Made by a program: the position numbers and the translations under genes
The notes under the pieces: model-generated
Database searches by the model: none
What the model saw: only the letters and a program-made list of their open reading frames with translations
Told to the model about the DNA's origin: nothing
Shown here: positions 20,896 to 38,591 of the stretch, piece by piece
Numbering within the stretch: the stretch's first letter is position 1
Layout of the letters: each line of letters opens with the position of its first letter
Assembly: GCA_019638355.1 (NCBI GenBank)
Contig: JAHBTY010000005.1
Location: 310,001 to 374,000 of the forward strand
DNA from: Cyclobacteriaceae bacterium
GTDB taxonomy: Bacteria > Bacteroidota > Bacteroidia > Cytophagales > Cyclobacteriaceae
Length of the DNA: 64,000 nt
Direction: 5' to 3'

Positions 20896-21000
20896 AAAAC
20901 ATTAAGATTATTCAGTAATCTGAGTAAGGGATTAACCCCTTAACCATTGCCTCTCAAGCATTTGAGAGGTTTGTGCCATCAAACTTTAAAAAGTAAAAAG

Positions 21001-21336: not shown

Positions 21337-23586
21337 ATGGCATCAAGTACCATATTCAGAAACTTTACCGTTCCGGTTGAAAAGAGATCATTACTTCTTA
21401 TTGGCAATGATATAGCCAACGGCAAATACAAAGCCGAGGTTGAAGAAATCAGGGCATTGCTGGAACAGGGTAAAGCGGAGGAAGCTGCCAGTAAGAAAAA
21501 GCAATTGTTGGCTTTCACTCCATCCGCAGTATTCACCGAGAAAAGGCAATTGCCTTTCCTGGAAATGTACAGCGGCTTTGTGCATCTCGATTTTGATAAG
21601 TTGACACCGGAACAGTTAGATACAGCTTTCAAAGTCATTGCCGAAATTCCCTACACTTTCCTATGCTTCATCAGCCCCAGCGGCAACGGCCTTAAAGTAT
21701 TCATTGAAGTGAATACAGGCATTGAGCACCACGATAAAGCCTATTTGCAGGTGCAGCAGTTTTACGAAGAAGCCACAGGATTAAAGGCCGACCCAAGCTG
21801 CAAAGACATTACACGCCTTTGCTTCATGAGTTACCATCCCGGACTGTACAAGAATATCCGCAACGAGAAATTCAAAGTGCAGCTACCAGAAACCAAAATG
21901 CAGGAACCGGTAAGGGAAACTACAGAGCCGATTTTGCCTCCACATCGAAGCGAACCTGAGGAGGATCTGAACACCGCTTTCATCTTCAATCAACAAATTC
22001 AATTCACCAATCAAAAATCACAATACACCGATGGAAACAGGAACAATTATATTTATCGGCTTGCTTCTAATTGCAACCGAGCTGGTTTATCGCAGTCCGA
22101 TGTTGAACTTTTATGTACACAACATTTTGACCTACCTGAAAGAGAAATTCTCGAAGCGATAAAGAGTGCCTACACCCACCACAAACCCGAGTTTGCAAAG
22201 TTTGCAAACACTGCAAAGCTGCAAAGTACAGAACAGCAGCCCCCACAGGAAGATTACCTGAAGGCAACACCCACCATTCCCGAAGAACTGTATTTGCAAA
22301 TGCCTGACCTCTTACAACATGGTGCAATGGCTTTTACAGATGAAAGGGAAAGAGATGTTTTCCTGACAGGTGCATTGGCTATTCTTAGCGGATGTTTGCC
22401 CGGTGTAAAGGGTGTGTATGCAGGAAATGAAGTATTCCCCAATGTATTTTCTTTTGCCATTGCTCCGGCTGCCAGTGGCAAGGGTGCTTTGAAATTCGCC
22501 AAAATGCTGGCAGACGATTACCACAGCTTTGTCCTAAAGGCAAGCCGAGAGGCAGAGATGCAATACAATCAGGAATTGTCAGAACACAAGCAGCGTATCA
22601 GCAGCAAGAAAAAAGGCGACACCTCCACAGAAGAGCCACCCACCAAACCGACTTTTAAAGTGGTGTACATTCCGGCCAATACCAGCTATGCAAAAATCCT
22701 TTGGCACTTGGAGCAGAACGAGGGTACAGGCATCATTTGCGAAACCGAAGCCGACACCCTGGGCAATGTATTCAAACAGGAATGGGGTTCCTATTCCGAT
22801 ATGCTTCGCAAATCGTTTCACCATGAGAGGCTTTCCAGTTCCCGTAAAGGCAATAATGAATTTACAGAGGTTAATGCCCCCAGCTTGTCCATTGCCCTCT
22901 CTGGTACACCCAATCAGGTAACGGGTTTGATAGCCTCTTCCGAAGATGGTTTGTTCAGCCGTTTCCTGTTCTATGCCTTCAAGGTGGAGCAGCGTTGGAA
23001 AGATGTTTCACCCAATGCCAATAACATTAACCTAACCGAGCATTTCAAAGTCCTTTCAGGCAGGGTGTTCAATATGGTCCAGTTCCTCCAACGGGAAGAA
23101 ACTGTTATCGAACTCTCAACGGAGCAATGGCAGCAGCTAAATCAACACTGTGAGGGATGGCTGAACGAGGTAACCATGTTCACAGCCGAGGAAGCCGCCA
23201 GTATTGTAAAACGCCTGGGCTTGATCCTGTACCGCATGGCCATGATTTTTACTTCCCTCCGCAAATTTGAGAACGGAGAGGCGGCCACCCGGATAGTGTG
23301 TACCGATGAAGATTTTAATACCGCCCTGCGGTTGGCAGAAATCTACCTCCACCACAGTATCCTCATGTTCAACAATCTGCCAAAGCAGAGCGAATCCACC
23401 CAGTTTAAGACAGGCGACAGCAAACGCAAATTCTTTGAGGCGTTGCCGGAAGAGTTTACCCGCCAACAGGCCGTTGAAATCGGCAAACAGTTTCAGCTTT
23501 CACCCCGTACCGTGGACGACATCCTCCACAATGCCACCGGCAAGGCTTTGGAAAAACTGAAAGCCGGTCATTACCGCAAAATCTAA
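21337..23586 (+). CDS. VirE-N (BT4734-like) / DUF3987 replication protein
   Basis: The N-terminal 200 residues carry the BT4734/VirE-N pattern: GFVHLDFDKL, FISPSGNGLKVFIEV and KDITRLCFMSYHP. This domain is related to primase-type folds. From about residue 310 a DUF3987 region follows, with a P-loop-like APAASGKGALKFAK (about 375-388) and the acidic ICETEADTLGN (about 468-478), consistent with a helicase-type ATPase. Such fusions are thought to serve as replication proteins of integrative elements and plasmids. At 749 residues it is complete. Autonomous replication of the excised island is inference. Confidence 0.8.
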   Translation: MASSTIFRNFTVPVEKRSLLLIGNDIANGKYKAEVEEIRALLEQGKAEEAASKKKQLLAFTPSAVFTEKRQLPFLEMYSGFVHLDFDKLTPEQLDTAFKVIAEIPYTFLCFISPSGNGLKVFIEVNTGIEHHDKAYLQVQQFYEEATGLKADPSCKDITRLCFMSYHPGLYKNIRNEKFKVQLPETKMQEPVRETTEPILPPHRSEPEEDLNTAFIFNQQIQFTNQKSQYTDGNRNNYIYRLASNCNRAGLSQSDVELLCTQHFDLPEREILEAIKSAYTHHKPEFAKFANTAKLQSTEQQPPQEDYLKATPTIPEELYLQMPDLLQHGAMAFTDERERDVFLTGALAILSGCLPGVKGVYAGNEVFPNVFSFAIAPAASGKGALKFAKMLADDYHSFVLKASREAEMQYNQELSEHKQRISSKKKGDTSTEEPPTKPTFKVVYIPANTSYAKILWHLEQNEGTGIICETEADTLGNVFKQEWGSYSDMLRKSFHHERLSSSRKGNNEFTEVNAPSLSIALSGTPNQVTGLIASSEDGLFSRFLFYAFKVEQRWKDVSPNANNINLTEHFKVLSGRVFNMVQFLQREETVIELSTEQWQQLNQHCEGWLNEVTMFTAEEAASIVKRLGLILYRMAMIFTSLRKFENGEAATRIVCTDEDFNTALRLAEIYLHHSILMFNNLPKQSESTQFKTGDSKRKFFEALPEEFTRQQAVEIGKQFQLSPRTVDDILHNATGKALEKLKAGHYRKI

Positions 23587-23770: not shown

Positions 23771-24064
23771 ATGGCAACACAATTTGGTGAGCGAATAAGG
23801 GAGCTTAGGACAAAGCAAAAACTGCTGCTGCGGCACGTTGCTTCTAAGTTAGATGTTGACACATCCATTATCAGCAAAATTGAACGGGGCGAAAGACCAA
23901 TTAAGAAAGAGCAGATTGCTGTATTGGCTGAAATCCTTCAGGCAGATAAAGTAGAGTTAGAAACACTATGGCTTGCTGATCAATTGATGCAGTTGGTGAA
24001 GGATGAACCTACGGCAGACGAAGCCCTAAAGTCAGTATCAAAAAAAATAAAGCGAGAGAAATAA
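23771..24064 (+). CDS. XRE-family transcriptional regulator
   Basis: ATG 23771 (MATQFGERIRELRTKQKLLL) gives 97 residues; the longer frame upstream is hydrophobic and spurious. The Cro/C1-type HTH spans about 8-60 (RHVASKLDVDTSIISKIERG) and a short helical tail follows. The stop overlaps the helicase ATG (TAATG), making it the leader gene of the operon. XRE regulators in this position commonly auto-repress restriction or defence operons, delaying toxic components until protection is established. That role is inference here. Confidence 0.85.
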   Translation: MATQFGERIRELRTKQKLLLRHVASKLDVDTSIISKIERGERPIKKEQIAVLAEILQADKVELETLWLADQLMQLVKDEPTADEALKSVSKKIKREK

Positions 24065-27000
24065 TGTCTACAAAGTTTTTTACAAATGAAAATGATAACA
24101 CCCTTCTAAGTAAAATTGAGGGAATATTCAAGCATCGAAATATTCACTTTTTCGATGCTTTAGTAGGCTATTTCAGAGCTTCAGGTTATTTCCGCATCCG
24201 CCCCTTTGTAGAAAAGGCAGCTGAGATTAGAATACTTGTAGGTATCAATATCGACAACCTTGTTTATGAAGCGAACAAAAGGGGTTTATTGTTTATTGAA
24301 GATCCGGCCAAAAGTAGAGATGATTTCTTCGCTGAATTGAAAAAGAACATTCAGGAAGCAGAATATGATAAAGATGTAGAAGCTGGAATGCTCCAGTTGA
24401 TTGAGGATTTGGTTACTGAGAAAATAAAAATCAAAGTACACCCAAAGCAGAACCTACATGCGAAAATCTACATTTTCAGAGAACAAGAGAAGCATGACCA
24501 CGGCTATGGTTCTGTTATTACTGGTTCAAGTAATTTAACTGATAACGGCTTAGAAAGAAATTTTGAGTTCAATGTTGAATTGCGGGATAACACAGATATA
24601 GATTTTGCTACAGCAACCTTCAACAAACTTTGGAATGAAAGTGTGGAGGTAGGAAAAGAGTTTGTGGATAAGCTCAAAAAAGAAACATACCTGAATGATG
24701 AGTTTACACCCTTTGAGGTATATATGAAATTCTTAATCGAGTATTTCGGTAGAAGCATTGATTTCGACCCTAACTCAATTCAGGATTTACCACAAGGATT
24801 TAAAAAGTTATCATACCAGGTTGATGCAGTTGCAGATGGGTACAGTAAGATGATGAAGCACCACGGCTTCTTTTTATCTGATGTAGTAGGACTTGGTAAA
24901 ACTATCGTGGCCACGTTGATAGCCAAGAAATTCTTTTATTCCAATGGGTTTCCATCTTATTTGTCTAAAACGTTGATTGTTTGTCCGCCAGCATTGAAAG
25001 AAAACTGGGAGGATACTCTTTCTAAATTCGGTTTGCACAACTACAAGATTGTAACATCGGGTAGCCTGCATAAAGTGAACAAGCATCATGACTATGACCT
25101 GATAGTTGTGGATGAAGCTCATAAGTTTAGAAGTGATAGTGCCGAAATGTACTTCCACTTGCAAAACATCTGCAAATCTCATACACGTAAGAAACTAACC
25201 AACGATACTTACGAGCAGAAAAGGGTGATGCTGATTTCAGCCACACCTTTAAACAATAAGCCAGAGGATATTGCAAATCTTGTGTACCTGTTTCAGGATG
25301 CCAAAAATTCAACATTGGAGGTTGGAAATTTGCAGCACTTTTTTAGAGGTCAAATCGATGCATACAAAAAGCTAAAAGCCGAAACGGATATCCAGAAAGT
25401 GAGTGCCGGTGTGAAAGGCATCTATGAAAAAATTAGGGTTAAAGTAATTGAACCGCTTACAGTTCGTAGAACCCGAACCGACCTTTCAGAAAACGAGGAG
25501 TATGCCAAAGATTTGAAAGAACAAGGTGTTATTTTCCCGGCAGTTAACAAACCTGAGAAAATATTTTATCAATTAGATGAATACTTAGATAGCCTCTATG
25601 ATAAAACAATACTGTATCTAAGCCATCCCACCAAGGGACTTTCGTATAATCGTTATCAGGCAATAAAATACTTGAAGCCGCACAAAAAGTCCAAGTACCA
25701 AAAAGCAGATATGATTTCAACCCAGTTGGCTTTCATTATGAAAACCCTACTGGTAAAACGTATTGACAGTAGCTTCTTCGCTTTTAAACAGTCTCTAAAT
25801 CGTTTTTCGGCTGCTACCAATGCAATGGTAACCATGTTTGATAATGATAGAATTTACATAGCCCCAAATTATGGAGTAAGCGACTATATAAACGAAGGCC
25901 GTGAGGAGGAGTTAATTGTAATACTGACTGACCTTGCTGAGACTGATCCAACAATTGAAATTTGTACGGCTGATGATTTTGAACCGGGTTTTATTACTGG
26001 TCTTAAAAATGACAAAGTGCTGCTGGATGAATTAGTACATGATTGGGCTAATGTTACCCAAGACCCAAAGCTGGAAGTATTCATTGATTATTTGCAAAAC
26101 AAACTTTTTGATAAGAGCATCAATAAAGATGAAAAGCTCGTTGTTTTTTCTGAGTCAAAGGAAACCACTGCCTACTTAGAGGCAGAATTGAAAAAGGCAA
26201 ATTTCAATAAAGTACTGGTAGTTGATAGCAAAAACAGAAAAGATAAATTCCCTTTTGTAAAAGCAAACTTTGATGCCAATATTCCACTAACAGAACAGAA
26301 GGATGATTACAATATCGTAATCAGCACTGAAGTGTTGGCAGAAGGGGTAAACATGCACCGTGCAAACATCATCGTTAATTATGACACCCCTTGGAACAGT
26401 ACAAAGCTCATGCAGCGTATTGGTAGGGTGAACCGTATTGGATCAAAAGCAAACAATATTCATATTTTCAATTTCTTTCCAACGGCTAAGGTCAACAGTG
26501 ATATTGAACTGGAGAAAAAGGCCATTATGAAATTACAGGCATTTCACTCCGCAATGGGTGAAGACAGTCAGATTTATTCGCCTGATGAGGTTACAGAGAG
26601 CTTTGGCTTGTTCGACAAAACAGTAAACGAGGAGAAAGACGAGAAACTGAGGATATTGTTGGAATTGCGAAAGTTCAAAAAAGATAATCCTGATCTGTTC
26701 AAGCAAATTAAGAACATGCCTACAAGGGCAAGGGTTGGTAGAAAAAGTCCTGTGCTGAAAGGTGCAACCATCACATTTATTCGCAACGAGAAAAGAGATG
26801 CTTTCTTACTTGTTAAGGAAAACGGGGATATTGACGAACTCACATTTCTGCAAGCTGAAAAAGAGTATTATGCAAAAATTACGGAGAAAGCCATTCCACT
26901 GAATGAACAGCATCATACACAGGTGAAAGAAGCCATCAGCTTGTTTGCCAACAAAATGGAAGAGGAGAAGAGTAAGGAACGTAAAATTGATACAACACAA

Positions 27001-27330
27001 GGCCCCAATGAAAAGAAGGCTTTGAGTTTCCTTGATGCATTAACCAACATGCAAATTGCAAATCCGGAGGAAAGGGAATTGATGCAGAATGCCAAGGCTG
27101 CTATCAGATTAGGCAAGTTTCAGCAATTGCAAAGGGATGTAAATAAGCTGGCAAAAGCAATAAAGGTTGCTCCCTTAAAACCTGCCAATTTGTTGGATGA
27201 GGTTATAAAACTGCTGAACAAATACCCCTTACAAGTGGTGGAAGATGATACCATGCAAATGCTTCAGCCCATTTTCAACATCAAGGAGTTTAAACCGGAA
27301 ATAATCATTAGTGAAAGTTTCGATAACTAA
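24064..27330 (+). CDS. PLD-domain SNF2-type helicase
   Basis: This 1088-residue protein starts with a phospholipase D-like nuclease domain: LHAKIYIF (His132, Lys134), then GSSNLTDNGLERNFEFNVEL (about 154-173). A superfamily 2 helicase follows: DVVGLGKT (Walker A, 273-280), VVDEAH (DEAH, 350-353), LISATPLNN (motif III), STEVLAEGVNMHRA (motif V) and MQRIGRVNRIGS (arginine fingers, about 783-794). The C-terminal 250 residues are charged and helical. Only one HxK is obvious, so the PLD part may work as a dimer or only bind DNA. Helicases of this build occur in DISARM and other anti-phage loci. A 15-bp gap separates it from the methyltransferase. Confidence 0.88.
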   Translation: MSTKFFTNENDNTLLSKIEGIFKHRNIHFFDALVGYFRASGYFRIRPFVEKAAEIRILVGINIDNLVYEANKRGLLFIEDPAKSRDDFFAELKKNIQEAEYDKDVEAGMLQLIEDLVTEKIKIKVHPKQNLHAKIYIFREQEKHDHGYGSVITGSSNLTDNGLERNFEFNVELRDNTDIDFATATFNKLWNESVEVGKEFVDKLKKETYLNDEFTPFEVYMKFLIEYFGRSIDFDPNSIQDLPQGFKKLSYQVDAVADGYSKMMKHHGFFLSDVVGLGKTIVATLIAKKFFYSNGFPSYLSKTLIVCPPALKENWEDTLSKFGLHNYKIVTSGSLHKVNKHHDYDLIVVDEAHKFRSDSAEMYFHLQNICKSHTRKKLTNDTYEQKRVMLISATPLNNKPEDIANLVYLFQDAKNSTLEVGNLQHFFRGQIDAYKKLKAETDIQKVSAGVKGIYEKIRVKVIEPLTVRRTRTDLSENEEYAKDLKEQGVIFPAVNKPEKIFYQLDEYLDSLYDKTILYLSHPTKGLSYNRYQAIKYLKPHKKSKYQKADMISTQLAFIMKTLLVKRIDSSFFAFKQSLNRFSAATNAMVTMFDNDRIYIAPNYGVSDYINEGREEELIVILTDLAETDPTIEICTADDFEPGFITGLKNDKVLLDELVHDWANVTQDPKLEVFIDYLQNKLFDKSINKDEKLVVFSESKETTAYLEAELKKANFNKVLVVDSKNRKDKFPFVKANFDANIPLTEQKDDYNIVISTEVLAEGVNMHRANIIVNYDTPWNSTKLMQRIGRVNRIGSKANNIHIFNFFPTAKVNSDIELEKKAIMKLQAFHSAMGEDSQIYSPDEVTESFGLFDKTVNEEKDEKLRILLELRKFKKDNPDLFKQIKNMPTRARVGRKSPVLKGATITFIRNEKRDAFLLVKENGDIDELTFLQAEKEYYAKITEKAIPLNEQHHTQVKEAISLFANKMEEEKSKERKIDTTQGPNEKKALSFLDALTNMQIANPEERELMQNAKAAIRLGKFQQLQRDVNKLAKAIKVAPLKPANLLDEVIKLLNKYPLQVVEDDTMQMLQPIFNIKEFKPEIIISESFDN

Positions 27331-27345
27331 TCAACTACTCATCAA

Positions 27346-30300
27346 ATGCAAGAGAGAGAAATAAAAAATATACTCACCGATGATTATGCCTTTGACAAGT
27401 GGCAAAGGCTTATTGACTTTGTGTTTCCCAAAGTCAATTTTGAAAACTCCATTGTCTCTTTGGATGATAGCAGTAATAAAACTAAATACATCCACCAAAA
27501 GGGAGATATTACACTCACTGACGGTAAGAAGATAATCATCCTTGAAGTTTGCATTAAGAAAGAGAACAAGATTGCCAAAACCAAAGTAAGTTTTCACAAT
27601 ATCACTGCTAAGTATATTGACCAGGCTAACAACCACGGTATTTTGGTATTCTATGTTTCGGAGGATAAGTCTCAGCAAGACTATCGTCTATCTTTCATTT
27701 GCAAAGAATCTCGTTTTAATGAAGAGGGTCAGTTTGAAGAGTTTAAAACAAACCCTAAGCGTTATACCTACCTGTTGGGTATCAATGAATCTGCTACTAC
27801 TGCTGCAAAGCGACTGAGGGAATTAGCAGCAAAGAAAAACACTTTCAACTTCGAGTTAAAGGATGTCATTGATGCCTTCTCTGTTGAAAAGCTGAATGAC
27901 GAGTTTTTCAAAAAATACAAAGAGCAGTTCCAGATATTTAATAACTACCTTATTGAAGATGATAAAATAAGGTATGGCATTTTTGACATTGATAAGAATG
28001 AGAAAGAAGAGAATAAAACTGCCAACGAACTGCCCATTCGTGATTTTACAAAGAAACTATTAGGTCGTTTAGTATTCCTTTACTTTTTGCAGCGTAAGGG
28101 ATGGATGGGTGTACCCACACCAACAGGCAGCCAGAAAGTAACATGGAAAAACGGGTATAAAAACTTTGTATATAAACTCTTTACGGAAGCGGCTAAACCG
28201 GAAAAATTTCACAGCAAATATTTATCAGAACTGTTCTACAATACACTGAATAACGAGAGCCGTGAAAACTTTGTCTTTCTGATAGATGGCAAAAGCCCAT
28301 TTAAGGATGCAAAAAATGTAAGTGTTCCATACCTCAACGGAGGTTTGTTTGATGATGATTTTCCGAAGGGCAATAAGATTGATTTTCCGAAGCACATTTT
28401 TGAAAATCTGTTTGAGTTTTTAGAACAGTACAATTTTACCATTGATGAAAACAGCCCGGAAGACCACGAGGTAGGTATTGACCCTGAAATGCTGGGCCAC
28501 ATCTTTGAAAACCTGTTGGAAGACAACCGGGATAAGGGAGCATATTATACACCCAAAGAAGTGGTGCATTATATGAGCCAGCAAAGTATTATTGAATACC
28601 TCAAACACAACTTAAATACCGATAGCAAAGACATAGATGATTTCGTAAAGGGCAATGTTGTTTCTGACTTTGTAAGAGCCAATCATTCGCTGATAAAGAA
28701 ATTGCTGAAAGAGGTAAAAGTATGTGATCCGGCCATTGGGTCAGGAGCTTTCCCAATGGGTGTTTTAAAAGTAATATTCACTGCATTGCAAAACCTGCAC
28801 AATGCCATCAGCCCAAATGAATCATTCAATGAGGCGAAGGTCAAAAAGGATATTATTCAAAAAAGCATCTATGGTGTTGATTTGGAAAAAGGTGCCGTTG
28901 ACATTGCAAGGTTACGATTTTGGCTGGCTTTGGTGGTGGATGAAGACAAGCCTCAACCCTTACCTAACCTCGACTACAAAATCATGCAGGGAAACAGTAT
29001 CCTTGAAAAGTTTGAGGATGTGGATTTGAGCAACCTGTTAAAAGACGAGAATGAGGAAATTATTACTGCACACAAAGGGCAGGTAGAATTGCCTGGCTTT
29101 GGCAGAAACCAAAGTGTTTTTGTGTTCGACAGTACCACTAAAGAAGAGTTTCAGAGCCTTATAGATTTATACTTCGATTTTAAAGTAGATACCTCATATC
29201 CATACAAAACCAAACAGGAGGTAAAGGCGAAGATTAACTCTATTATTGAGGGCAAGTTGAAGGCAAAGTTTGCATTGGATAAAACCAAGTTGCAAGCAAC
29301 TTTGGCCGAAAAGCAAAGCCATGTAAAGGCTAATACCATCAATACCCATGACCCAAAGGGAGTTCAGGATAAAAAGACCAAAGCAGTAGAGAAACTAAAT
29401 AAAGAAATTGAATCCCTTGAATACAAGATAGCCCACCTGAGTGATATATTAGACCGCCTCAACCGATGGGAGCATGAGGAGAAAGAACGGCCCTACTTTT
29501 TGTGGCACACCTATTTCAAAGATGTATTCGATAAAGGTAAGTTCGACATTATTATAGGCAATCCACCATACATAAAGGAATACACTAATCGTAAGGCGTT
29601 TGATGGAATTAGAGACAGCCCTTACTACATGGGCAAAATGGATATATGGTACTTTTTTGCCTGCTTCTGTATTGATATGCTGAAAGACAATGGGGGCATA
29701 CAATGCTTTATTGCACAGAACAACTGGATAACCAGTTCAGGTGCTGCAAAACTGCGGAACAAAATTGTGCAGGAAACTGAAATGCTTTCGTTTATTGATT
29801 TTGGTAACTACAAAGTTTTTCAGAGTGCCGGTATACAAACCATGATTTATGTGGTGAAGAAAACAACGCCAAGAGAAAAATATACCACCAACTATGCAAG
29901 ATTGCTGGTGGATAATATTGATAAAACCTTTTTGGATTACTTCCTGCAATCAGATGCCAATACTACACATGAAAACTTTGAAAAGGTAAACTTTGAGTTT
30001 GTTCCGGATACTTATATCGATGGTTATATCACTTTTGCAAATGACACTAATGAGAATATTCTAAAGAAAATTCAAGAGGTTGAACATATACGATTGGAAG
30101 AAAAGGAGATAGCGACCGGAATACAGCCTAATCCCGATGTTGTTAATACAAGGAATATTAAGCGTTTTACTGAACGAGAAATTAGCGACAACAAAATAAA
30201 GGTAGGCGATGGAGTTTTTGTTGTTCCGAAGGGTAAGTTTGATAAATTGGATGATGCTGAGAAAAAGTACATCAAGCCAGTCTTTGAGCCTAATGAAGTT

Positions 30301-31101
30301 CAGCGGTACAAGTTTATTGATGATTACGAATCTGAAATATTGTACATCACGAAAGCCAATTATCAAAATGATGCACCGAATCTATTAAAGCATCTCTCTG
30401 TCTATAGTAAGATAATGGAAGAGAGGCGAGAAAATCAAAATGGTCGTCTTACTTATTACCATTTGCAATGGCCAAGAGATGAAAATTTCTTTAAGGAAGG
30501 AGAAAAAATATTAAGCGTTAGAAAGTGTGATAGACCTACGTTCATTTACACTAAAGCGATGTCATATGTAATGCTTTCGTTTAATGTAATTAGGACTGAA
30601 AGAGTAAACCTGAAGTATTTAACTGCATTGCTAAATAGTAAACTAATAGCATTTTGGTTAAGAAACAAAGGCAAAATGCAGGGTAACAATTACCAGATAG
30701 ATAAAGAGCCTTTGCTGGAGATACCCATTGCATTGTCTGACAAGCAGCAAATTATTGCTACGCTGGTCGATTATATTTTGCTGGTGCATCAGCCCCGCAA
30801 GGAGCAGTTGATAAAATACATTGGCGATGATTTGATCATTCATTCGTTTGATGAAGTAATAGACCAGGCTTTTTACGAAATATACTTTGGTGCAGAGCCT
30901 GAAATGGCAGAATTGCAAGTATTGAAATACCTGGAGAATATTAAACCCATTTCAGAAGACTACACAGATGCCGATATTGAAACAGTGGTAAAATTTTACC
31001 ACTGGCTGCATGAGCAAACAAATCCTGTTCGTACCGCTTTACTCAAAGCCAACATTGTAAGTAAAGATATTATTGGTGTAATAAATTCAACCATCAGCTA
31101 A
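27346..31101 (+). CDS. Eco57I-like N6-adenine DNA methyltransferase, possible type IIG enzyme
   Basis: The 1251-residue protein has the central gamma-type adenine methylase: GAYYTPKEVVHYM (about 398-410), VCDPAIGSGAFPMG (AdoMet motif I, about 459) and IIIGNPPYIKEY (motif IV NPPY, about 738). A coiled-coil insertion lies at about 620-705. The C-terminal 400 residues look like a TaqI/Eco57I-type target-recognition region. The N-terminus (KGDITLTDGKKIIILEVCIK, about 48-75) has the spacing of a PD-(D/E)XK nuclease, but the usual ExK reads EVC, so cleavage activity is uncertain. If that domain is live, this is a single-chain restriction-modification enzyme; if not, a BREX PglX-like methylase. Its stop overlaps the ATPase start (TAATG). 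Confidence 0.88.
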   Translation: MQEREIKNILTDDYAFDKWQRLIDFVFPKVNFENSIVSLDDSSNKTKYIHQKGDITLTDGKKIIILEVCIKKENKIAKTKVSFHNITAKYIDQANNHGILVFYVSEDKSQQDYRLSFICKESRFNEEGQFEEFKTNPKRYTYLLGINESATTAAKRLRELAAKKNTFNFELKDVIDAFSVEKLNDEFFKKYKEQFQIFNNYLIEDDKIRYGIFDIDKNEKEENKTANELPIRDFTKKLLGRLVFLYFLQRKGWMGVPTPTGSQKVTWKNGYKNFVYKLFTEAAKPEKFHSKYLSELFYNTLNNESRENFVFLIDGKSPFKDAKNVSVPYLNGGLFDDDFPKGNKIDFPKHIFENLFEFLEQYNFTIDENSPEDHEVGIDPEMLGHIFENLLEDNRDKGAYYTPKEVVHYMSQQSIIEYLKHNLNTDSKDIDDFVKGNVVSDFVRANHSLIKKLLKEVKVCDPAIGSGAFPMGVLKVIFTALQNLHNAISPNESFNEAKVKKDIIQKSIYGVDLEKGAVDIARLRFWLALVVDEDKPQPLPNLDYKIMQGNSILEKFEDVDLSNLLKDENEEIITAHKGQVELPGFGRNQSVFVFDSTTKEEFQSLIDLYFDFKVDTSYPYKTKQEVKAKINSIIEGKLKAKFALDKTKLQATLAEKQSHVKANTINTHDPKGVQDKKTKAVEKLNKEIESLEYKIAHLSDILDRLNRWEHEEKERPYFLWHTYFKDVFDKGKFDIIIGNPPYIKEYTNRKAFDGIRDSPYYMGKMDIWYFFACFCIDMLKDNGGIQCFIAQNNWITSSGAAKLRNKIVQETEMLSFIDFGNYKVFQSAGIQTMIYVVKKTTPREKYTTNYARLLVDNIDKTFLDYFLQSDANTTHENFEKVNFEFVPDTYIDGYITFANDTNENILKKIQEVEHIRLEEKEIATGIQPNPDVVNTRNIKRFTEREISDNKIKVGDGVFVVPKGKFDKLDDAEKKYIKPVFEPNEVQRYKFIDDYESEILYITKANYQNDAPNLLKHLSVYSKIMEERRENQNGRLTYYHLQWPRDENFFKEGEKILSVRKCDRPTFIYTKAMSYVMLSFNVIRTERVNLKYLTALLNSKLIAFWLRNKGKMQGNNYQIDKEPLLEIPIALSDKQQIIATLVDYILLVHQPRKEQLIKYIGDDLIIHSFDEVIDQAFYEIYFGAEPEMAELQVLKYLENIKPISEDYTDADIETVVKFYHWLHEQTNPVRTALLKANIVSKDIIGVINSTIS

Positions 31102-32960
31102 TGAAGATTATCGAACTCACACTACACAACTTCAAGTTTTTTACCGAAACCGACAACACACTAAAGCTGGACGGTAAAAACGTGTTGATATGGGGGGAAA
31201 ACGGTAGTGGTAAATCTTCTATCTATTGGGGCATTTATACATTGCTCCAATGCAGTTTTAAAGAGAATGGTGGTATAGATGCCTACTTTACAGAAAACCA
31301 CGAGAAAAACCTCATAAACATACATACACCTGCCGGTGATCCTTCTTTCATAGAAATGAAGTTGGACAATGGCAATGCGTATAAAATAGCCCTTGGCGAT
31401 TATAGTGTCATCAACGATAAAGATGTTCAGTTAAGTGCTGTCAGCAGTGATTTCATCAATTATCAGGTGCTGGCAAGTTTCCTCAGCTTTTATCACAGAG
31501 ACAATCCTGTTTTGTTTGAAATGTTTGAAGTGGAAATTTTCAGGTATTTACAGTTTTCCCCTCCTGCCCCTTACACATTCGACTTTTTTAATGATGCCTG
31601 GGAAGAGCTCAAAAAACCTTTGGTTAAAAGTGGTAAGCCAAGCAAATACCCAAATAAGCTATCTACAATCGTTACCAACAAAAACAAGCTCAAGGATGCG
31701 TTTAATTTACAGTTGAGGACTTTGCTGGGCAATGCAACCACTAAGGCCAACGACATATTAAAAACCAAATTCGGTTACGATATCGAAATTGAGTTAGAAT
31801 ATCGGGAGTACGATTTTGAACTGCTGGCCAACAACAGCGATGTCCGCTATACCATGCCGGAAATATTCCTTAAAATCAGAAAGTACTATGGCAAAGAGGA
31901 TGTTGTAAAAAAGCCACATTCATTTTTAAATGAGGCCAAGAAGACTGCAATAGGCTTAGCCATCCGGTTGGGCATTTTGGAGAGAAGATTATTGGCTGAC
32001 AAGCTAAATGTACTGGCGTTGGATGATTTGCTGATAAGTCTGGATATGAGCAACCGGGAAGTAGTACTAAAACTGCTTTTTGGCGAGTATCAGGATAAAT
32101 ATCAGTTATTGATTTTCACCCACGATAAGCAATTCTTCAACATTGCTAAGCATAAAATAGAGCACAGCAGTTTTAAAGACAATTGGCTGTTTTGGGAATT
32201 TTATGTGAACGAAAAAGATCCACTCATTCCCAAACCGAGGTTTTTTGAAAATGAAACGGAATTGTCAAAGGCACTATATCACTTGTCAGAAAGCGACTAT
32301 CCTGCATCTGTCAATTACCTGAGAAAGCATACGGAGAAGATTTTGGAAAAACACCTTCCTCATCATTTGTATGCAAACATTGACAAAGAAGAGCCCAACA
32401 GCAATTATACATTGGATTCTATGCTGGGCAGGGCCATTATCTTTTTCACCAAGATAAATCAGCCCACAATAGTGTCGAATTTATCAGATGTAAAACAGTA
32501 TGTAAAAATTCTATTGAACCCATTATCGCATACAGAACGTGGAGTTCAAAGACATAAGGGCGAAATCAAAAACATAATAATCACTTTAGATGCTTTGGAA
32601 AGGTCATTTTCACTGGCGTCATATAGAGTGCATATTAAGTCAGGTGAGCTTGTTACTTTGAAACTCACTAAGGATGCAACAATATCTTACGAAATTGATG
32701 TAAGGCTTCTGGAAGATTTATTTTGGTTTAAAGATGGTCTAAATGACCGTTTTGCCCCATGCAAATCCGAATCTATAAGAATAAGGGAGTTTGAAAATGC
32801 CGTTTTAAAAGAAGATAAGAAATTCAATCATTATAAAGATTTACCACTTTCTGATTTGTATACTCAGATTGTAAATCATAATGCTTTTCAAATTCCAGTT
32901 ATTGCAGATTGGGAGTCACTGTACTTCAAATCTGACGGCACTTTATTAACTACTTTGTAA
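31101..32960 (+). CDS. SMC/RecF-like AAA ATPase
   Basis: This 619-residue protein opens like RecF/OLD-type ATPases: IIELTLHNFKFF, then WGENGSGKSSIYWGIY (Walker A, 31-46). The Walker B-like LALDDLLISLDMSNR (about 305-319) and a switch His in FTHDKQFF (about 339-346) follow. The intervening arm (about 90-270) is short, without an obvious long coiled coil. The C-terminal 250 residues (ESDYPASVNYLRKHTEKILE onward) are unassigned. It is coupled to the methyltransferase by a TAATG overlap. It could be a DNA- or phage-sensing motor for the operon, but no toprim or HNH motif was seen. Confidence 0.82.
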   Translation: MKIIELTLHNFKFFTETDNTLKLDGKNVLIWGENGSGKSSIYWGIYTLLQCSFKENGGIDAYFTENHEKNLINIHTPAGDPSFIEMKLDNGNAYKIALGDYSVINDKDVQLSAVSSDFINYQVLASFLSFYHRDNPVLFEMFEVEIFRYLQFSPPAPYTFDFFNDAWEELKKPLVKSGKPSKYPNKLSTIVTNKNKLKDAFNLQLRTLLGNATTKANDILKTKFGYDIEIELEYREYDFELLANNSDVRYTMPEIFLKIRKYYGKEDVVKKPHSFLNEAKKTAIGLAIRLGILERRLLADKLNVLALDDLLISLDMSNREVVLKLLFGEYQDKYQLLIFTHDKQFFNIAKHKIEHSSFKDNWLFWEFYVNEKDPLIPKPRFFENETELSKALYHLSESDYPASVNYLRKHTEKILEKHLPHHLYANIDKEEPNSNYTLDSMLGRAIIFFTKINQPTIVSNLSDVKQYVKILLNPLSHTERGVQRHKGEIKNIIITLDALERSFSLASYRVHIKSGELVTLKLTKDATISYEIDVRLLEDLFWFKDGLNDRFAPCKSESIRIREFENAVLKEDKKFNHYKDLPLSDLYTQIVNHNAFQIPVIADWESLYFKSDGTLLTTL

Positions 32961-32972
32961 ATCGAATTAATT

Positions 32973-34007
32973 ATGTCAGAGATCAATAACCCACAACATA
33001 GCGACATCATATTTTACAACACCCCCACAGGTGATGTGAAAATTGAGGTGATTTTTAATGACGAAACCTTTTGGCTCACTCAAAAGCGGATGGCGGAATT
33101 GTTTGGTGTGGAAGTTCCTGCTATCAACAAACACCTCAGTAATATTTACGAAACGGGCGAACTGGACGAAAAGGCAACTATTTCCATTTTGGAAACAGTT
33201 CAGCAGGAAGGCACCCGGATGGTAAAGAGGAATGTGGAGTTTTACAATCTGGATGCTATAATAGCCGTTGGCTATAGGGTAAACAGCCATCAAGCCACTC
33301 AGTTCCGCATTTGGGCTACTAAAACCCTTAGAGAGTTCATTATCAAGGGTTTTGTATTGGACGATGAAAGGCTTAAACAAGGAAAACGCTTTGGCAAGGA
33401 CTACTTTGAAGAACTCTTGGAACGCATCCGGGAGATTCGGGCAAGTGAAAGGCGTTTCTACCTCAAAATAACCGACATCTACGAACAGTGCAGTATCGAT
33501 TACAACAAGGATGCAGAAATCACCCAAAAGTTCTTTAAAACAGTTCAAAACAAGCTGCATTGGGCAATTACCGGGAAAACGGCAGCCGAACTGATTGCTG
33601 ACCGTGCCGATGCCTCCCAGCCCAACATGGGCTTAACCACCTGGAAGAATGCCCCCAAAGGTAAAATCCTGAAAACAGATATTGGAACAGCCAAAAATTA
33701 CCTGCAGGAAAAGGAAATCAAAGAACTGGAACGTATCGTTACCATGTACCTCGATTTTGCTGAACTGCAAGCCGAAAGACAGATCCCGATGAAAATGGCA
33801 GATTGGGTTACCCGTTTGGATGCCTTCCTTCAATTCAACGAATACCAGATTTTAAAAGATGCAGGTAAAGTGAGCCATGAAGTAGCCATGAAATTGGCAG
33901 AGAAAGAATATGAAAAATTCAGAGTAATTCAGGATAGAAATTTTGAAAGTGATTTTGAGAAAGAAGTAAAAAAGATAACCGATAAGCCCAAAAAGAAAAA
34001 GAAATAA
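32973..34007 (+). CDS. RhuM-family protein
   Basis: The 344-residue sequence matches the RhuM family named from Salmonella pathogenicity island 3. Diagnostic stretches are VIFNDETFWLTQKRMAELF, AINKHLSNIYETGELDE, YNLDAIIAVGYRVNSHQATQ and FRIWATKTLREFIIKGFVLD. The C-terminal half (ITDIYEQCSIDYNKDAE, then NKLHWAITGKTAAELI) is also typical. The N-terminus is probably DNA-binding. The biochemical function is unknown, though the genes are frequent inside restriction and defence loci. It ends in a basic KPKKKKK tail, and its TAA is directly followed by the Argonaute ATG, so the two are likely made together. Confidence 0.88.
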   Translation: MSEINNPQHSDIIFYNTPTGDVKIEVIFNDETFWLTQKRMAELFGVEVPAINKHLSNIYETGELDEKATISILETVQQEGTRMVKRNVEFYNLDAIIAVGYRVNSHQATQFRIWATKTLREFIIKGFVLDDERLKQGKRFGKDYFEELLERIREIRASERRFYLKITDIYEQCSIDYNKDAEITQKFFKTVQNKLHWAITGKTAAELIADRADASQPNMGLTTWKNAPKGKILKTDIGTAKNYLQEKEIKELERIVTMYLDFAELQAERQIPMKMADWVTRLDAFLQFNEYQILKDAGKVSHEVAMKLAEKEYEKFRVIQDRNFESDFEKEVKKITDKPKKKKK

Positions 34008-36086
34008 ATGCAGCAAGATTTACTCTTAAATATCATTCCTTTCAATCCTCCGGCAGGGAAACAAACTTTTGCATTCTACAGGCAGAAGCAGCCTGGTTAT
34101 TATCCGGTGTTTAAAGGTGATTTGCAAGGGTTACTTGATGATAAATTTTCTGCATTGGAATTGCTGGAATTAGAAAAGCTGTACACTGATTTTCAGCCAC
34201 CCAGAGAAGGGGCAATACTCTTGGATATTGATTTATCGGTTAGCACCCGTTTTGCCAATCATTACTACCGCTACCTGATAAGAAAACACTTTGAAGGTAT
34301 TGCAGATATCATGCATCAGGACTTCACCAGTGAAACAGAAGTATGGTTTCATAGTCCTGAAAAGAGCACCGCCAAATACAAAGTGTATAACCAGTTTACA
34401 CTCAAAGTTCAATATGGCAGGGTAACAGATAAACCCGAATTGGTTCTTTCTTATGATGGCACAACCAAAGTATTTGCAAAGCCGGTTTCCGAAATATACA
34501 ACTTCAATACCAACCTGTACAATTGGATAGTTTGCAATGGGGTTATTTATAAATGGAAGTTCAGACCACAGGAGGTAATCAATCAACCACAGAATTGTTA
34601 CCCAATTTTAAGCAACGAACTCAAGCCGCATTTAGAAATTGCCTTTGATGTACCGGACTTAAAAAACCGCTATCCAAAATACTTGGATATTCTGCAAGAT
34701 TTTTACAGCAAGTATCTCAACACCCCTGCTTTTTGCAAAATCATTCCTATAACCGAGGAAGGCTTTTATCGGCCAAAGGCAGAGCAGTACCGTGTTATCA
34801 ATTCAAGCTCCAACGATTTGTTGTATGCCGGAGGAAAAACAGGAAAGGAGCCTAAGAAAGATTTTAAGTCAAAAGGTCCTTACCAATTACCACAGAAGCC
34901 CAGCAACTTCAAATTCTTTTTCATTTATCAGCAGTCAGACAAACCAACTGCGGTAACTGAACTGTACAGGTATTTGCATAGTGGCTGGAAAGACGACCGT
35001 TTCCCTTTCCCCAAAATGCAAGACTACATCAAAGTGCCTTTTGAGTTAGACATTTCAAAGAACGTAGAATTTGATACCGTTGAAAATGCAGTAGCCAGTG
35101 TTCGCAATGCTGTAAAGAACGCAGATTGGCAACCTGATACGCAATACATGGCACTCTTTGTAAACCCAGTGCCTAAATTAGAAAAGGACGAAGGCAAGAA
35201 GAACATTTACTATAAGATCAAAGAAATCCTTTTGTATGAAGGTGTGCTTTCACAAGTAATCAAAAGCGAACACCTGTACAAAAACGGTAAGCCTAATTCT
35301 TTCTTCAATACATTCCTGCCACACATTGAAATTGCCATGCTGGCAAAATTGGGTGGTGTGCCCTGGAGGCTGAACAGACCAACCAACAATGAGCTTATTG
35401 TGGGTGTGGGTGCATTCTATTCTGTTACCCGTAAATCCAGATTTGTAGGCTCTGCTTTCTGCTTCAATAATGAGGGTATATTCAAAGGCTTTGATTGCTT
35501 TAAAGGCGATGATACCATAAGCCTTGCAGGTTCCATCCGTGAGGCAGTAGCAGAGTTTATTGCCGTCAATTATACAGCTTCAAGGTTGGTTATTCACTTC
35601 TATAAAGACATTGGCAAAAAGGAATTAGAACCCATCCTGCGGACTTTACACACATTGGGCTTGAACATTCCTGTTATTGTTGTTACCATCAACAAAACTG
35701 AAAGCAAAGAGTTGTTAGGCTTTGATGTAAGCGATGCGGAGAACCTGATGCCATACAGTGGCACAATTGTAAAGGTGGGCAAATCCGAATACCTGCTATT
35801 CAACAATACCCGATACGATGCAACCTCAAAGCCTGCACAAAAGGAATATCACTTTCCGGTAAAGATTGCTTTATCCTCAACAGTGGAAGGCATGTTAGAT
35901 GATATGAACTTGGTAGAGCAACTCATAGACCAGGTGTATCAGTTCAGCCGTATGTACTGGAAAAGCACCAATCAGCAGAATTTGCCGGTTACCATCAAGT
36001 ACCCTGAAATGGTGGCCGAGATTTGCCCTTATTTCCAACACGACAAACTGCCTGACTTTGGGAAGGAGAGTTTGTGGTTTTTGTGA
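34008..36086 (+). CDS. long prokaryotic Argonaute, probably catalytically inactive
   Basis: The C-terminal half of this 692-residue protein is MID-PIWI. MID: the guide 5'-phosphate pocket residues appear as YYKIKEILL (Tyr/Lys about 401-405), SQVI (Gln416) and LAKLGGVPWRL (Lys447). PIWI: LIVGVGAFYS (463-472), RLVIHFYKDIGKKE (526-539), VTINKTES, YLLFNNTRY (595-603) and the C-terminal LWFL typical of Argonautes. Where active proteins have the first catalytic Asp (GxD) this one has Gly468, so target slicing is unlikely. The N-terminal 380 residues hold N and PAZ-like parts I cannot delimit. Length and inactivation fit the long-B type, which acts with a partner effector. No TIR, Sir2 or DREN-type partner adjoins; the partner may be RhuM or the upstream genes. 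Confidence 0.85.
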   Translation: MQQDLLLNIIPFNPPAGKQTFAFYRQKQPGYYPVFKGDLQGLLDDKFSALELLELEKLYTDFQPPREGAILLDIDLSVSTRFANHYYRYLIRKHFEGIADIMHQDFTSETEVWFHSPEKSTAKYKVYNQFTLKVQYGRVTDKPELVLSYDGTTKVFAKPVSEIYNFNTNLYNWIVCNGVIYKWKFRPQEVINQPQNCYPILSNELKPHLEIAFDVPDLKNRYPKYLDILQDFYSKYLNTPAFCKIIPITEEGFYRPKAEQYRVINSSSNDLLYAGGKTGKEPKKDFKSKGPYQLPQKPSNFKFFFIYQQSDKPTAVTELYRYLHSGWKDDRFPFPKMQDYIKVPFELDISKNVEFDTVENAVASVRNAVKNADWQPDTQYMALFVNPVPKLEKDEGKKNIYYKIKEILLYEGVLSQVIKSEHLYKNGKPNSFFNTFLPHIEIAMLAKLGGVPWRLNRPTNNELIVGVGAFYSVTRKSRFVGSAFCFNNEGIFKGFDCFKGDDTISLAGSIREAVAEFIAVNYTASRLVIHFYKDIGKKELEPILRTLHTLGLNIPVIVVTINKTESKELLGFDVSDAENLMPYSGTIVKVGKSEYLLFNNTRYDATSKPAQKEYHFPVKIALSSTVEGMLDDMNLVEQLIDQVYQFSRMYWKSTNQQNLPVTIKYPEMVAEICPYFQHDKLPDFGKESLWFL

Positions 36087-36151: not shown

Positions 36152-36754
36152 ATGAAACAGACTCTTTCAAAGGCAGAACGTACCCGTAATTATATAATTG
36201 AGAAAACTGCCCCTGTTTTCAATGAAAAGGGGTTCGCAGGAACATCGCTTGCAGACATGACAAACGCTACTGGTCTTACAAAAGGCAGTATTTACGGAAA
36301 CTTTACAAACAAAGATGAGGTTGCTTTGGCTGCATTTGATTACAATTATGGCAAAGTAACAAACTATATAAAGGACAAAATTTTAGCTACCGACAATTCC
36401 ATAGAACGACTGTTGGTTTATCCCAAAGTGTATCGTGACTTTTTGAAAATACCGTTTTTAAAACCAGGTTGCCCAATCCTGAATACTTCTACAGAAGCAG
36501 ATGATACTCACCCAAAATTGAGAGAACGAGCGGCAAATGCTTTGGCATTTTGGAAAACTTCTATTGAAAGTCAAATAAAACGTGGCATAGAAAGAGGAGA
36601 AATAAAAGAAGACACAAACCCAACTGAGTTTGCAGTCATTTTGATGTCGTTAATTGAAGGTGCAATCATGCAAGCGAAGGTTACTGGCAAACCCACTGAA
36701 CTTAGCATAGCCATGAATTATTTAGAACAACTAATTCTTAACATAAAGACGTAA
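36152..36754 (+). CDS. TetR/AcrR-family repressor
   Basis: ATG 36152 (MKQTLSKAERTRNYI) gives 200 residues. A longer frame reaching back into the Argonaute gene is rejected because the operator and -7 box lie there. The N-terminal HTH is classical: AERTRNYIIEKTAPVFNEKG, then TSLADMTNATGLTKGSIYGN (about 41-60). The ligand domain includes LKPGCPILNTSTEADDTHP, resembling the TetR_C_33/YxaF-like group. Matching operators before it and before the thiolase indicate that it controls both itself and the downstream operon, probably de-repressed by an acyl-type or electrophilic ligand. Confidence 0.88.
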   Translation: MKQTLSKAERTRNYIIEKTAPVFNEKGFAGTSLADMTNATGLTKGSIYGNFTNKDEVALAAFDYNYGKVTNYIKDKILATDNSIERLLVYPKVYRDFLKIPFLKPGCPILNTSTEADDTHPKLRERAANALAFWKTSIESQIKRGIERGEIKEDTNPTEFAVILMSLIEGAIMQAKVTGKPTELSIAMNYLEQLILNIKT

Positions 36755-36770
36755 TTTTTTTTAATCAATA

Positions 36771-36791
36771 ATATACCGATTGGTATATTTT
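36771..36791 (+). promoter_or_regulatory. second TetR operator, overlapping the thiolase promoter
   Basis: ATATACCGATTGGTATAT (36771-36788) shares arms TATACC/GGTATA and 4-bp spacing with the site at 36115. TATATTTT (36784-36791) is a 7/8 match to TAnnTTTG and overlaps the right arm; the thiolase ATG follows at 36805. Confidence 0.7.
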
Positions 36792-36804
36792 AATAAGTAA
36801 CAGA

Positions 36805-38088
36805 ATGGAAATAATGAACAAAAACATCAGAAGAGTTGCGGTAGTAGGATACAATCGTATTCCATTTGCAAGGCAGAACACCGCATATACACTTGCAAGT
36901 AACAGCGACATGCTCGTTGCTACGCTAAACGGACTAATTAACAAATATCAATTACATGGTGAGTTACTTGGCGAAGTAGCTGGCGGTGCTGTAATTAAAA
37001 GCGGAACGGAAGGCAATTTGATTCGTGAAAGTGTAATGAACACTTCACTCAATCCAGCAACACCTGGTTGTGATATTCAGCAAGCATGTGCAACAGGGGT
37101 TGAAGCAGCTATTTACATAGCCAATAAAATTGCATTAGGACAAATTGATTCAGGAATTGCCTGCGGTGTTGATTCTACAAGCAATGTTCCATTGGAACAT
37201 GGAATAAAGCTGAAAAGCACATTGCTTGCAGCAAAGAGAGCGAAAAGCAATTTGGAGCGATTAAAACTATTCCTATCGCTTCGCCCAAAAGATTTCAAGC
37301 CCGTTACACCAGTAAATGATGAACCGAAAACAGGTTTATCAATGGGCGGTCATACTGAATATTCTGCTAAATATTATGGAATAACCAGAGAAGCACAAGA
37401 CGCATTTGCTTTATCAAGTCATCAAAAATTGGCGAATGCTTATGACGAAGGATTTATAGCTGAAATGATAACTCCATTCATGGGTTTAAACGCTGATAAC
37501 AATTTACGCAGAGATACCAATATGGAAAAGCTATCAAAGCTCAAACCTGCCTTTGACAAGCAAAATGGAACGCTTACAGCTGGTAATTCAACACCGCTTT
37601 CTGACGGTGCTTCTGCCGTGTTGCTTGCAAGTGAAGAATGGGCTGCAAAACATAATTTACCCGTGTTGGCTTACATCACTTTTGCCGAAGTAGCAGCCAT
37701 TGAATACGTGAATAATAAACACAATTTGTTAATGGCTCCTGTTTTGGCTGCCGACAGAATGTTGCGTAAAGCCAACCTCAAATTGCAAGACTTTGATTTT
37801 TATGAAATACATGAAGCATTTGCAGCCCAAGTGTTAGCCACGCTTAAAATTTATGAAAGCGATAAACTATGCAAAGATTTAGGTTTAGAAAAAGCTCTTG
37901 GCACTATTGACTTGAATAAACTTAACGTAAAAGGAAGCAGCTTGGCGGCTGCACATCCTTTTGCAGCTACTGGTTGCAGAATCATTGCCACGATGGCAAA
38001 ACTACTCCATCAAAAAGGTTCGGGCAGAGGTTTTATTTCTGTTTGTGCGGCTCGTGGGCAAGGGGTAACAATGATTTTAGAAAAATAA
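36805..38088 (+). CDS. acetyl-CoA acyltransferase (thiolase)
   Basis: This enzyme would condense or cleave acyl-CoA at the beta-keto position. The acyl-accepting Cys is in PGCDIQQACATGVEAA (Cys95). The His-Glu pair is in YEIHEAFAAQ, and the second Cys is in SVCAARGQGVTM. The 427-residue length and GTIDLNKLNVKGSSLAAAHP pattern match FadI/FadA-type thiolases. An alternative start three codons in (36814) is possible. It follows a TetR operator and begins a run of seven same-strand genes. No acyl-CoA dehydrogenase or hydratase partner is present in the island. Confidence 0.88.
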   Translation: MEIMNKNIRRVAVVGYNRIPFARQNTAYTLASNSDMLVATLNGLINKYQLHGELLGEVAGGAVIKSGTEGNLIRESVMNTSLNPATPGCDIQQACATGVEAAIYIANKIALGQIDSGIACGVDSTSNVPLEHGIKLKSTLLAAKRAKSNLERLKLFLSLRPKDFKPVTPVNDEPKTGLSMGGHTEYSAKYYGITREAQDAFALSSHQKLANAYDEGFIAEMITPFMGLNADNNLRRDTNMEKLSKLKPAFDKQNGTLTAGNSTPLSDGASAVLLASEEWAAKHNLPVLAYITFAEVAAIEYVNNKHNLLMAPVLAADRMLRKANLKLQDFDFYEIHEAFAAQVLATLKIYESDKLCKDLGLEKALGTIDLNKLNVKGSSLAAAHPFAATGCRIIATMAKLLHQKGSGRGFISVCAARGQGVTMILEK

Positions 38089-38100
38089 AAAACAACAAGC

Positions 38101-38580
38101 ATGAAAAACTTACCAAAAACATTAGAAAGTAAAGCACGGATTCAATATCAAGATTGCGACCCGTTTAATCATTTGAATAACTCCAAATATATTGACTATA
38201 TCGTTGTTGCAAGAACCGAACAGTTACTTGAGCAATATGGATTTAACACAGCTGAATTGGCTTTTAAAGAAGGCTTAGGATGGGTAACAGCATTAACTCA
38301 AGTTTCATACTTCCACCCTGCAACATGGATGGAAATAGTAACCATTGAATCAAGGTTGATTCAGTTTTCTGATTACAGTTTGCTGGTGGAAGCATTTATG
38401 TGGGATGAACATAAAACGAAACTCAAATGTGTGATGTGGGGAAAGCTGGTTCATTTTAACATGAAGACTCAAAAGAGTTTCAAACATTCTGACGAACTAC
38501 TAAAATTATTCTCTGAAATATTATATCCAATTGAAAACATATCAACATTTGAAGAACGGGTAAAATCATTAAAACAATAA
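38101..38580 (+). CDS. 4HBT hot-dog acyl-CoA thioesterase
   Basis: The 159-residue protein carries the 4-hydroxybenzoyl-CoA thioesterase signature IQYQDCDPFNHLNNSKYIDY (about 14-33), with the catalytic Asp and the conserved N-H-x-N. SYFHPATWMEIVTIESRL and KCVMWGKLVHFN form later strands of the hot-dog fold. It would hydrolyse an acyl-CoA thioester; chain specificity is unknown. Lying 12 bp after the thiolase, it is probably part of the same operon. Confidence 0.82.
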   Translation: MKNLPKTLESKARIQYQDCDPFNHLNNSKYIDYIVVARTEQLLEQYGFNTAELAFKEGLGWVTALTQVSYFHPATWMEIVTIESRLIQFSDYSLLVEAFMWDEHKTKLKCVMWGKLVHFNMKTQKSFKHSDELLKLFSEILYPIENISTFEERVKSLKQ

Positions 38581-38591
38581 TTCAAGCGATC

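Follow-up and report, generated by a model that had tools for sequence, protein, structure and literature searches.

Does the long Argonaute that closes a tight run of restriction-type genes form one defence system with its neighbours, as a sequence-only reading of this locus had proposed, or does it belong to a larger unit in which those neighbours are guests? The locus lies in a 64,000-bp stretch of Cyclobacteriaceae bacterium DNA (assembly GCA_019638355.1, contig JAHBTY010000005.1, positions 310,001 to 374,000 of the forward strand), which we call the window and to which all coordinates refer. We favour the second answer, with a probability of roughly 0.78: the six genes at 23771–36086 would be the XRE–cargo–Argonaute stretch of a 27-kb element integrated at mnmE, which owns a non-cutting, guide-binding Argonaute standing beside a slot for exchangeable restriction genes. 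This reading is drawn from sequence comparisons: the ends of the element can be placed, a relative lacks it, cassettes in the slot are exchanged, and the Argonaute has lost catalytic residues, retained guide-binding ones and stayed under purifying selection. The six co-directed genes, with coordinates taken from the open reading frames, are as follows (related loci are numbered L).

23771–24064, + strand: XRE regulator (Pfam XRE helix–turn–helix, HTH), left edge of the cargo slot; the end of the DNA in common is 24052 for L074 and 24066 for L075
24064–27330, + strand: PLD nuclease–SNF2 helicase (Pfam PLDc_2, SNF2-rel_dom, Helicase_C), restriction cargo
27346–31101, + strand: Eco57I-type N6-adenine methylase (Pfam Eco57I, N6_Mtase, TaqI_C), restriction cargo
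31101–32960, + strand: RecF/SMC-type ATPase (Pfam SMC_N, AAA_23), accessory cargo
32973–34007, + strand: RhuM-family protein (Pfam Virulence_RhuM), accessory cargo, in one block with the Argonaute in L072
34008–36086, + strand: long-B-like Argonaute, predicted inactive (Pfam Piwi), right edge of the cargo slot; DNA in common with L073 and L074 covers 34007–36084

The sequence-only reading had described this gene set, its domains and an operon-like run on one strand, and our coordinates, Pfam matches and junctions agree with it. The XRE stop and the helicase ATG overlap in a TAATG at 24064, as do the methylase stop and the ATPase start at 31101; a gap of 15 bp separates the helicase stop (27330) from the methylase start (27346), 12 bp lie between the ATPase stop (32960) and the RhuM start (32973), and inspection of the last junction sequence showed the RhuM end (34007) and the Argonaute start (34008) joined in TAAATG. 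The longest XRE open reading frame begins at 23630, and the alternative start at 23771 (MATQFGERI...) gives the length seen in relatives (cluster median 99 residues).

The run is the inner part of a 27,057-bp element at the 3′ end of mnmE, from 18137 to 45211, its length being measured between the ends of two 18-bp repeats. The remaining features of the element are listed below.

18137–18154, + strand: core of the left attachment site (attL), the last 18 bp of mnmE (encoding FCIGK-stop), an exact direct repeat of 45194–45211
18252–18722, + strand: small HTH_17 protein (Pfam), excisionase-like by PHROG match
18719–19825, + strand: tyrosine integrase (Pfam Phage_int_SAM_5, Phage_integrase, Arm-DNA-bind_5)
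19828–20895, + strand: DUF6617 backbone protein (Pfam), identity correlated with that of the Argonaute
20947–21306, + strand: HTH_17 backbone protein (Pfam; HTH17 below), identity correlated with that of the Argonaute
21337–23586, + strand: primase/helicase (Pfam BT4734-like_N plus DUF3987; PHROG DNA primase matches)
36155–41546, + strand: downstream cargo between the att repeats (TetR, thiolase, thioesterase, split PanE-like protein, PEBP, DUF1572, GNAT-cupin)
42912–43337, + strand: DUF6943 right-end gene, whose cluster (c16) is present in 16 of 97 loci and lies inside attR where both are seen
43852–44601, − strand: right-end gene without a Pfam match, c19-like by eye, the window copy being outside the c19 cluster
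45194–45211, + strand: core of the right attachment site (attR) at the element end, the second 18-bp repeat; in genome G009, DNA matching the window from 45429 starts ~0.4 kb past mnmE

The backbone has the order integrase, DUF6617, HTH protein, primase/helicase, usually XRE, then Argonaute and right-end genes. In many relatives the mnmE end or the right end of the element is the attL 18-mer with up to two or three mismatches, and a copy with one or two mismatches lies beyond the right-end gene c19 in, e.g., L102, L107, L112, L114 and L132. The relative G009, with an mnmE 89% identical to that of the window, carries no such element at its mnmE site; the matching DNA after its mnmE corresponds to 45429–45913 and 47416–48049, the region of a GH95 gene whose middle part is absent. 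With its integrase, its att repeats and a relative that lacks it at the mnmE position, the unit has the marks of a site-specific integrative element, and present-day mobility is predicted. Close to each end (18220–18285 and 45144–45157) lie short repeats of the TTTGTTGCC type, which may be the arm sites of the integrase.

The Argonaute goes with the integrase of this element. Integrases with at least 60% identity to it were found in 12 of 390 genomes of the order, and ten of these 12 hold a full-length Argonaute, on the same contig in all ten, compared with three of the remaining 378 (Fisher 9e-16, the genomes being phylogenetically non-independent); mnmE elements with more distant integrases showed no Argonaute in the stretch examined. 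Argonaute identity also follows that of HTH17 (r=0.72, 27 loci) and of DUF6617 (r=0.72, 24 loci), values reached in neither case by any of 500 permutations, and to a lesser degree that of the C-terminal part of the primase (r=0.42, 12 loci, 22 of 500 permutations). A phage or a plasmid as home of the Argonaute was rejected, given one relative in viral contigs and six plasmid records, none of which covers 80% of the query.

That this Argonaute is inactive, as the first reading of the sequence had it, is borne out. Its AlphaFold2 model (mean predicted local distance difference test score, pLDDT, 85; predicted template-modelling score, pTM, 0.81) matches RsAgo chains best in the PDB (5awh, E 9e-28, 16% identity, TM-score 0.66), with the SIWI fold of the piRNA clade close behind (E 2e-27); by sequence, the best hits include RsAgo and EcAgo and are led by the short AfAgo. 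In the structure alignment of 37 members, used for all residue counts, the position of the first catalytic aspartate falls on Gly468 and that of the third on Tyr532; every row has glycine at 468 and tyrosine at 532, save one phenylalanine at the latter, and none has aspartate at either position. These positions are equated with D1 and D3 by the RsAgo alignment and by the motifs of active Argonautes. Asp534, two residues off, occurs in 12 of the 37 rows, that of the window included, and is not conserved. The MID residues Tyr401, Lys405, Gln416 and Lys447 and the C-terminal leucine, in contrast to the catalytic aspartates, are invariant in all 37 rows. The assignment of these MID residues to a guide 5′-phosphate (YK-type) motif follows in part the available excerpt of PMC6299218. 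The ratio of non-synonymous to synonymous substitution (dN/dS) is 0.031–0.041 against L072, L073, L074 and L076, the comparison with L080 being unused for saturation of its synonymous distance, and the Argonaute is under purifying selection. Loss of these two catalytic aspartates, a kept MID motif and this selection together point to a protein that is maintained, binds guides and would be unable to slice.

The helicase and methylase behave differently. The PLD helicase was found in 31 of the 390 genomes (E up to 1e-100), and in 20 of its 34 match regions, which were examined, the methylase was present in all 20, the ATPase in eight, and RhuM and the Argonaute in none. Among the 31 helicase genomes besides this one, an Argonaute match (E up to 1e-20) occurred only in G307, on a different contig from the helicase, and in G410, where it is weak and ~1.4 Mb away. 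The helicase–methylase pair is independent of the Argonaute, and adjoins the Argonaute family only in this genome among the 390; a second helicase–methylase pair is present in this genome on contig C1. Conserved in the helicase are the PLD motifs H-[AS]-K and GSSN, a Walker A motif and a DE[AS]H box, and in the methylase a motif I of DPA-[IVC]-GSGAF type (one variant row; DPAIGSGAF in the window) and NPPY, and the ATPase has the Walker A sequence GENGSGKS. Judged by these families, helicase and methylase would form a restriction-modification unit in which the PLD part does the cutting. We considered whether the N-terminus of the methylase holds a PD-(D/E)XK site and rejected this, as no invariant motif was seen by eye.

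What else can occupy the slot was surveyed by scanning species genomes with a 16-row Argonaute profile, which gave 281 relatives, records of Algoriphagus boritolerans, Algoriphagus formosus and Marinoscillum furvescens being among those found; the best 80 were kept, slot classes were assigned from cluster profiles, names came from Pfam and PADLOC scans of cluster representatives, and L073 and L054, like L074 and L017, are the same record and were counted once. The interval between backbone and Argonaute is whole in 55 of the 80 loci: 21 hold type I-like genes (HsdM and HsdR in 14, HsdM with no HsdR recognised in seven), 16 type III genes (mod and res in 15), one the PLD set (L132), one a distant SNF2 helicase (L109), seven other genes (in L089 a type ISP enzyme, in L146 an Abi_2 protein), and nine no cargo. 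In eight of these nine the XRE stop is 1–22 bp before the Argonaute, and in the ninth the primase gene is 504 bp before it. In L132, whose element is of this kind, the slot before the Argonaute is likewise filled by PLD helicase, methylase and ATPase, and in genomes G049 and G035 the same backbone carries type I restriction genes (PADLOC names) in place of the PLD set. L109 as a locus combining PLD and type III genes was rejected, its helicase match being weak (55 bits) with an alignment that leaves out the PLD part and its 'T3' match a 147-residue open reading frame. The gene directly downstream of the Argonaute differs between loci.

The edges of this exchange can be placed at the genes themselves. 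DNA in common with L074 ends at 24052, the XRE end, resumes at 34007, the Argonaute start, and ends at 36084, the Argonaute stop; with L075 the corresponding positions are 24066, 34023 and 36084. In the available sequence of L073 the common DNA is the Argonaute alone (34007–36084), and in L072 RhuM and Argonaute form one common block (32991–36082) of 95.6% DNA identity. Different cassettes stand beside Argonautes 96–98% identical, and L072, whose Argonaute is nearest to that of the window (98%), has type I genes in its slot. On a tree of 80 Argonautes, of which 74 could be labelled by cassette and six could not because the left end of the slot was outside the available sequence (two of 82, shorter than 550 residues, were omitted: L085, in two pieces, and L134, at a contig end), cassette type requires 34 changes compared with 35.5 ± 2.0 after shuffling, 153 of 500 shuffles giving 34 or fewer, and it is without signal on this tree. 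Some very close pairs, e.g. L148 and L151, share a cassette type. No short recombination motif was seen by eye at the slot edges.

Several further observations concern these loci. In L080, L095, L098, L100 and L123, genes of ~152 and ~198 residues (clusters c37 and c38) occupy the usual place of XRE. A deaminase-like protein with an HATPase_c_4 domain (cluster c23, e.g. L133:8149–9651) occurs in 11 of 82 loci, directly before the Argonaute in five. Cargo of metal-resistance type, i.e. AcrB/CzcA-like transporters of the resistance–nodulation–division (RND) family, Fur-like and HMA-domain proteins and P-type ATPases, lies mostly to the right of the Argonaute (L139, L113, L059 and L057), and in L100 elsewhere than downstream of it. 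In L110 (10253–10510; 44 residues, 93%) and L111 (13319–13576), which resemble near copies of each other, a second copy of the Argonaute 3′ end follows ~8 kb further downstream, which looks as though cargo had been inserted at that end. Within the window element, DUF6617 (19828–20895) is 43% identical to its G049 counterpart, compared with 99% for the integrase and 98% for HTH17, and common DNA is interrupted between 19860 and 20866; the DUF6617 gene is a second exchange point, inside the backbone. A probably non-coding stretch near the right end, 41615–42000, is 99, 97 and 81% identical in L072, L074 and L079 respectively, and in the first two is more conserved than the Argonaute. At 38592–39537 a ketopantoate-reductase-like gene is seemingly split into two overlapping open reading frames, the first of which was scanned.

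How do other readings of the locus fare against these data? A single evolved six-gene system, with helicase, methylase and ATPase discriminating self and the Argonaute adding guided targeting against mobile genetic elements, was the first proposal, and it would suit the tight junctions with their two TAATG overlaps as well as L132, a second locus where PLD helicase, methylase and ATPase run up to an Argonaute and through which the set does co-occur with one elsewhere. We nevertheless consider it highly improbable, since the Argonaute is in none of the 20 helicase loci examined and occurs also where the slot holds type I-like or type III restriction genes, others, or none (nine of the 55 slots), cassette type has no signal on the Argonaute tree, and the 98% identical Argonaute of L072 adjoins type I genes. 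The same reading's more cautious version, two modules stacked by insertion with RhuM and Argonaute as one of them, is supported, in that RhuM and Argonaute share one block with L072 and RhuM lies directly before the Argonaute in seven of the nine loci that have it (of 82). If, instead, DNA of invaders cut by the cassette were the source of Argonaute guides, this would explain why some restriction system usually adjoins the Argonaute, of type I-like or type III kind in 37 of the 55 whole slots, with the L132 set and the L089 enzyme in addition; the nine slots without cargo speak against such feeding, as does RsAgo, the nearest fold, which by its structure titles was solved with an RNA guide and a DNA target, and we regard it as improbable.

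The Argonaute might also be one more cargo gene of an ordinary defence island, kept for the usefulness of its neighbours. Its DNA edges are sharp at its own start and stop and its synonymous distance is unlike that of the integrase, so that it can evidently move by itself, and it is flanked by cargo on either side. Yet it is present in ten of 12 near-integrase genomes compared with three of 378 others, its identity correlates with DUF6617 and HTH17 at r=0.72, and it is kept where the slot is empty; we find this reading rather unlikely. The element-owned Argonaute that we prefer has points to answer as well. The 60% integrase cut-off was picked after the list had been seen, and two of the 12 genomes above it are without Argonaute, both with a stop codon in the integrase; G304's contig ends ~3 kb beyond the integrase, and G424 carries in addition a gene pair that looks like IS21 istA/istB. 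Argonaute identity is weakly correlated with that of the integrase (r=0.31, 17 loci, 7 of 500 permutations), and synonymous divergence within the same element pair is 0.63 for the Argonaute and 0.32 for the integrase, so that the Argonaute is exchanged too. XRE barely correlates with the Argonaute (r=0.145, 39 loci, 1 of 500 permutations), on which ground we rejected it as a co-evolving partner, and it was recognised in only 37 of the 55 whole slots, 18 starting at the primase gene, so that XRE is usual rather than constant. The Argonaute tree was built quickly and has 14 open forks as well as long-branch warnings, and 25 of the 80 slots are incomplete (11 type I, six type III, four other and four without a gene). 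Relaxase and conjugation families are absent among the element genes scanned with Pfam. Finally, no integrase was recognised at a second Argonaute island of this genome (contig C5, ~65 to 100 kb; L266, L013 and L267), which shares the HTH17 and primase genes with the element and has type I genes before its Argonaute and RND-type genes behind.

On the reading of an element-owned Argonaute beside an exchangeable slot, the XRE protein would regulate the operon, the methylase would mark self, the helicase would move on unmarked DNA for its PLD domain to cut, and the ATPase and RhuM would be accessories of this restriction pair. The Argonaute, as a standing gene of the element, would be loaded with small guides and bind nucleic acid from phages or rival elements, blocking this target or recruiting other nucleases, whichever restriction system fills the slot. 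A more specific version, which we put forward tentatively and at somewhat less than even odds, is that the guide-loaded, non-cutting Argonaute serves the backbone together with primase, HTH protein and DUF6617, excluding or silencing rival and sister elements or controlling the element's own replication, the slot being a separate weapon rack re-armed by recombination.

These findings provide a mobile-element context for a little-understood group of bacterial Argonautes and carry a warning that operon neighbours of an Argonaute may be slot cargo, not partners; DUF6617, HTH17 and the primase are better partner candidates. Restriction genes are among the defence gene sets with which prokaryotic Argonaute (pAgo) genes were statistically linked by Makarova 2009 (PMC2743648, available portion), and Ryazansky 2018 describes, in the excerpt available, HsdS, lambda-repressor HTH proteins and RND transporters near pAgos, with RND transporters near long-B Argonautes in 14% of operons and their role left as unknown (PMC6299218). 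Element cargo would account for these transporters, and RND-type CzcA genes in 26 of our 82 loci fit. DUF3987 and VirE ATPase domains are regarded as likely mobile-element helicases (PMC5862659, in part). In the open-access literature searched we found no description of this mnmE element, by which novelty is not proven; SGI1 and other trmE islands, set beside it by description, differ in being of Gram-negative pathogens with drug-resistance genes (PMC6531882, available portion).

Among known systems, Hma also has consecutive genes for helicase, methylase and ATPase, and our helicase matches HmaA with 105 bits; Hma, as far as the accessible text goes, has a 5-methylcytosine (m5C) methylase (Payne 2021, PMC8565338) and a DUF499 ATPase (PMC12839542), whereas the window has an N6A-type methylase (Eco57I/N6_Mtase with NPPY), a RecF/SMC ATPase of SMC/AAA families with no DUF499 match, and a PLD domain, so membership was rejected. 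DISARM was rejected because DrmD-, DrmA- and DrmC-like matches all come from one helicase and lie below NCBIfam cut-offs (DrmD 162 of 610 bits), and BREX because PglZ, BrxC and BrxL are absent among the matches listed for the six genes, PADLOC included, the PglX-like match reaching 72.7 of 500 bits. For the Argonaute, RsAgo (5awh, 6d8a) is the best fold and likewise lacks aspartate where D1 and D3 align, at an identity of ~16% and with SIWI scoring nearly equally. BPAN, BPAS and BPAM are systems of long-B Argonautes without slicing, as ours would be, but have, in the part of PMC10620215 available, a fixed downstream effector, whereas the downstream gene varies here; lacking a constant effector gene directly downstream, our Argonaute was not placed among them. 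The primase family PF08800 was formerly named VirE_N. The clade of this Argonaute may correspond to og_54, a long-B subclade described by Song et al. 2023, in which a VirE-N protein lies two to eight genes upstream and whose function the authors leave open (PMC10620215). The excerpt available makes no mention of an element, the mnmE site or a restriction slot, and the clades are likened by description; an inactive long-B Argonaute with VirE-N upstream would nevertheless fit our primase and a slot of variable size, and this element family would then account for the variable distance at which that gene is found.

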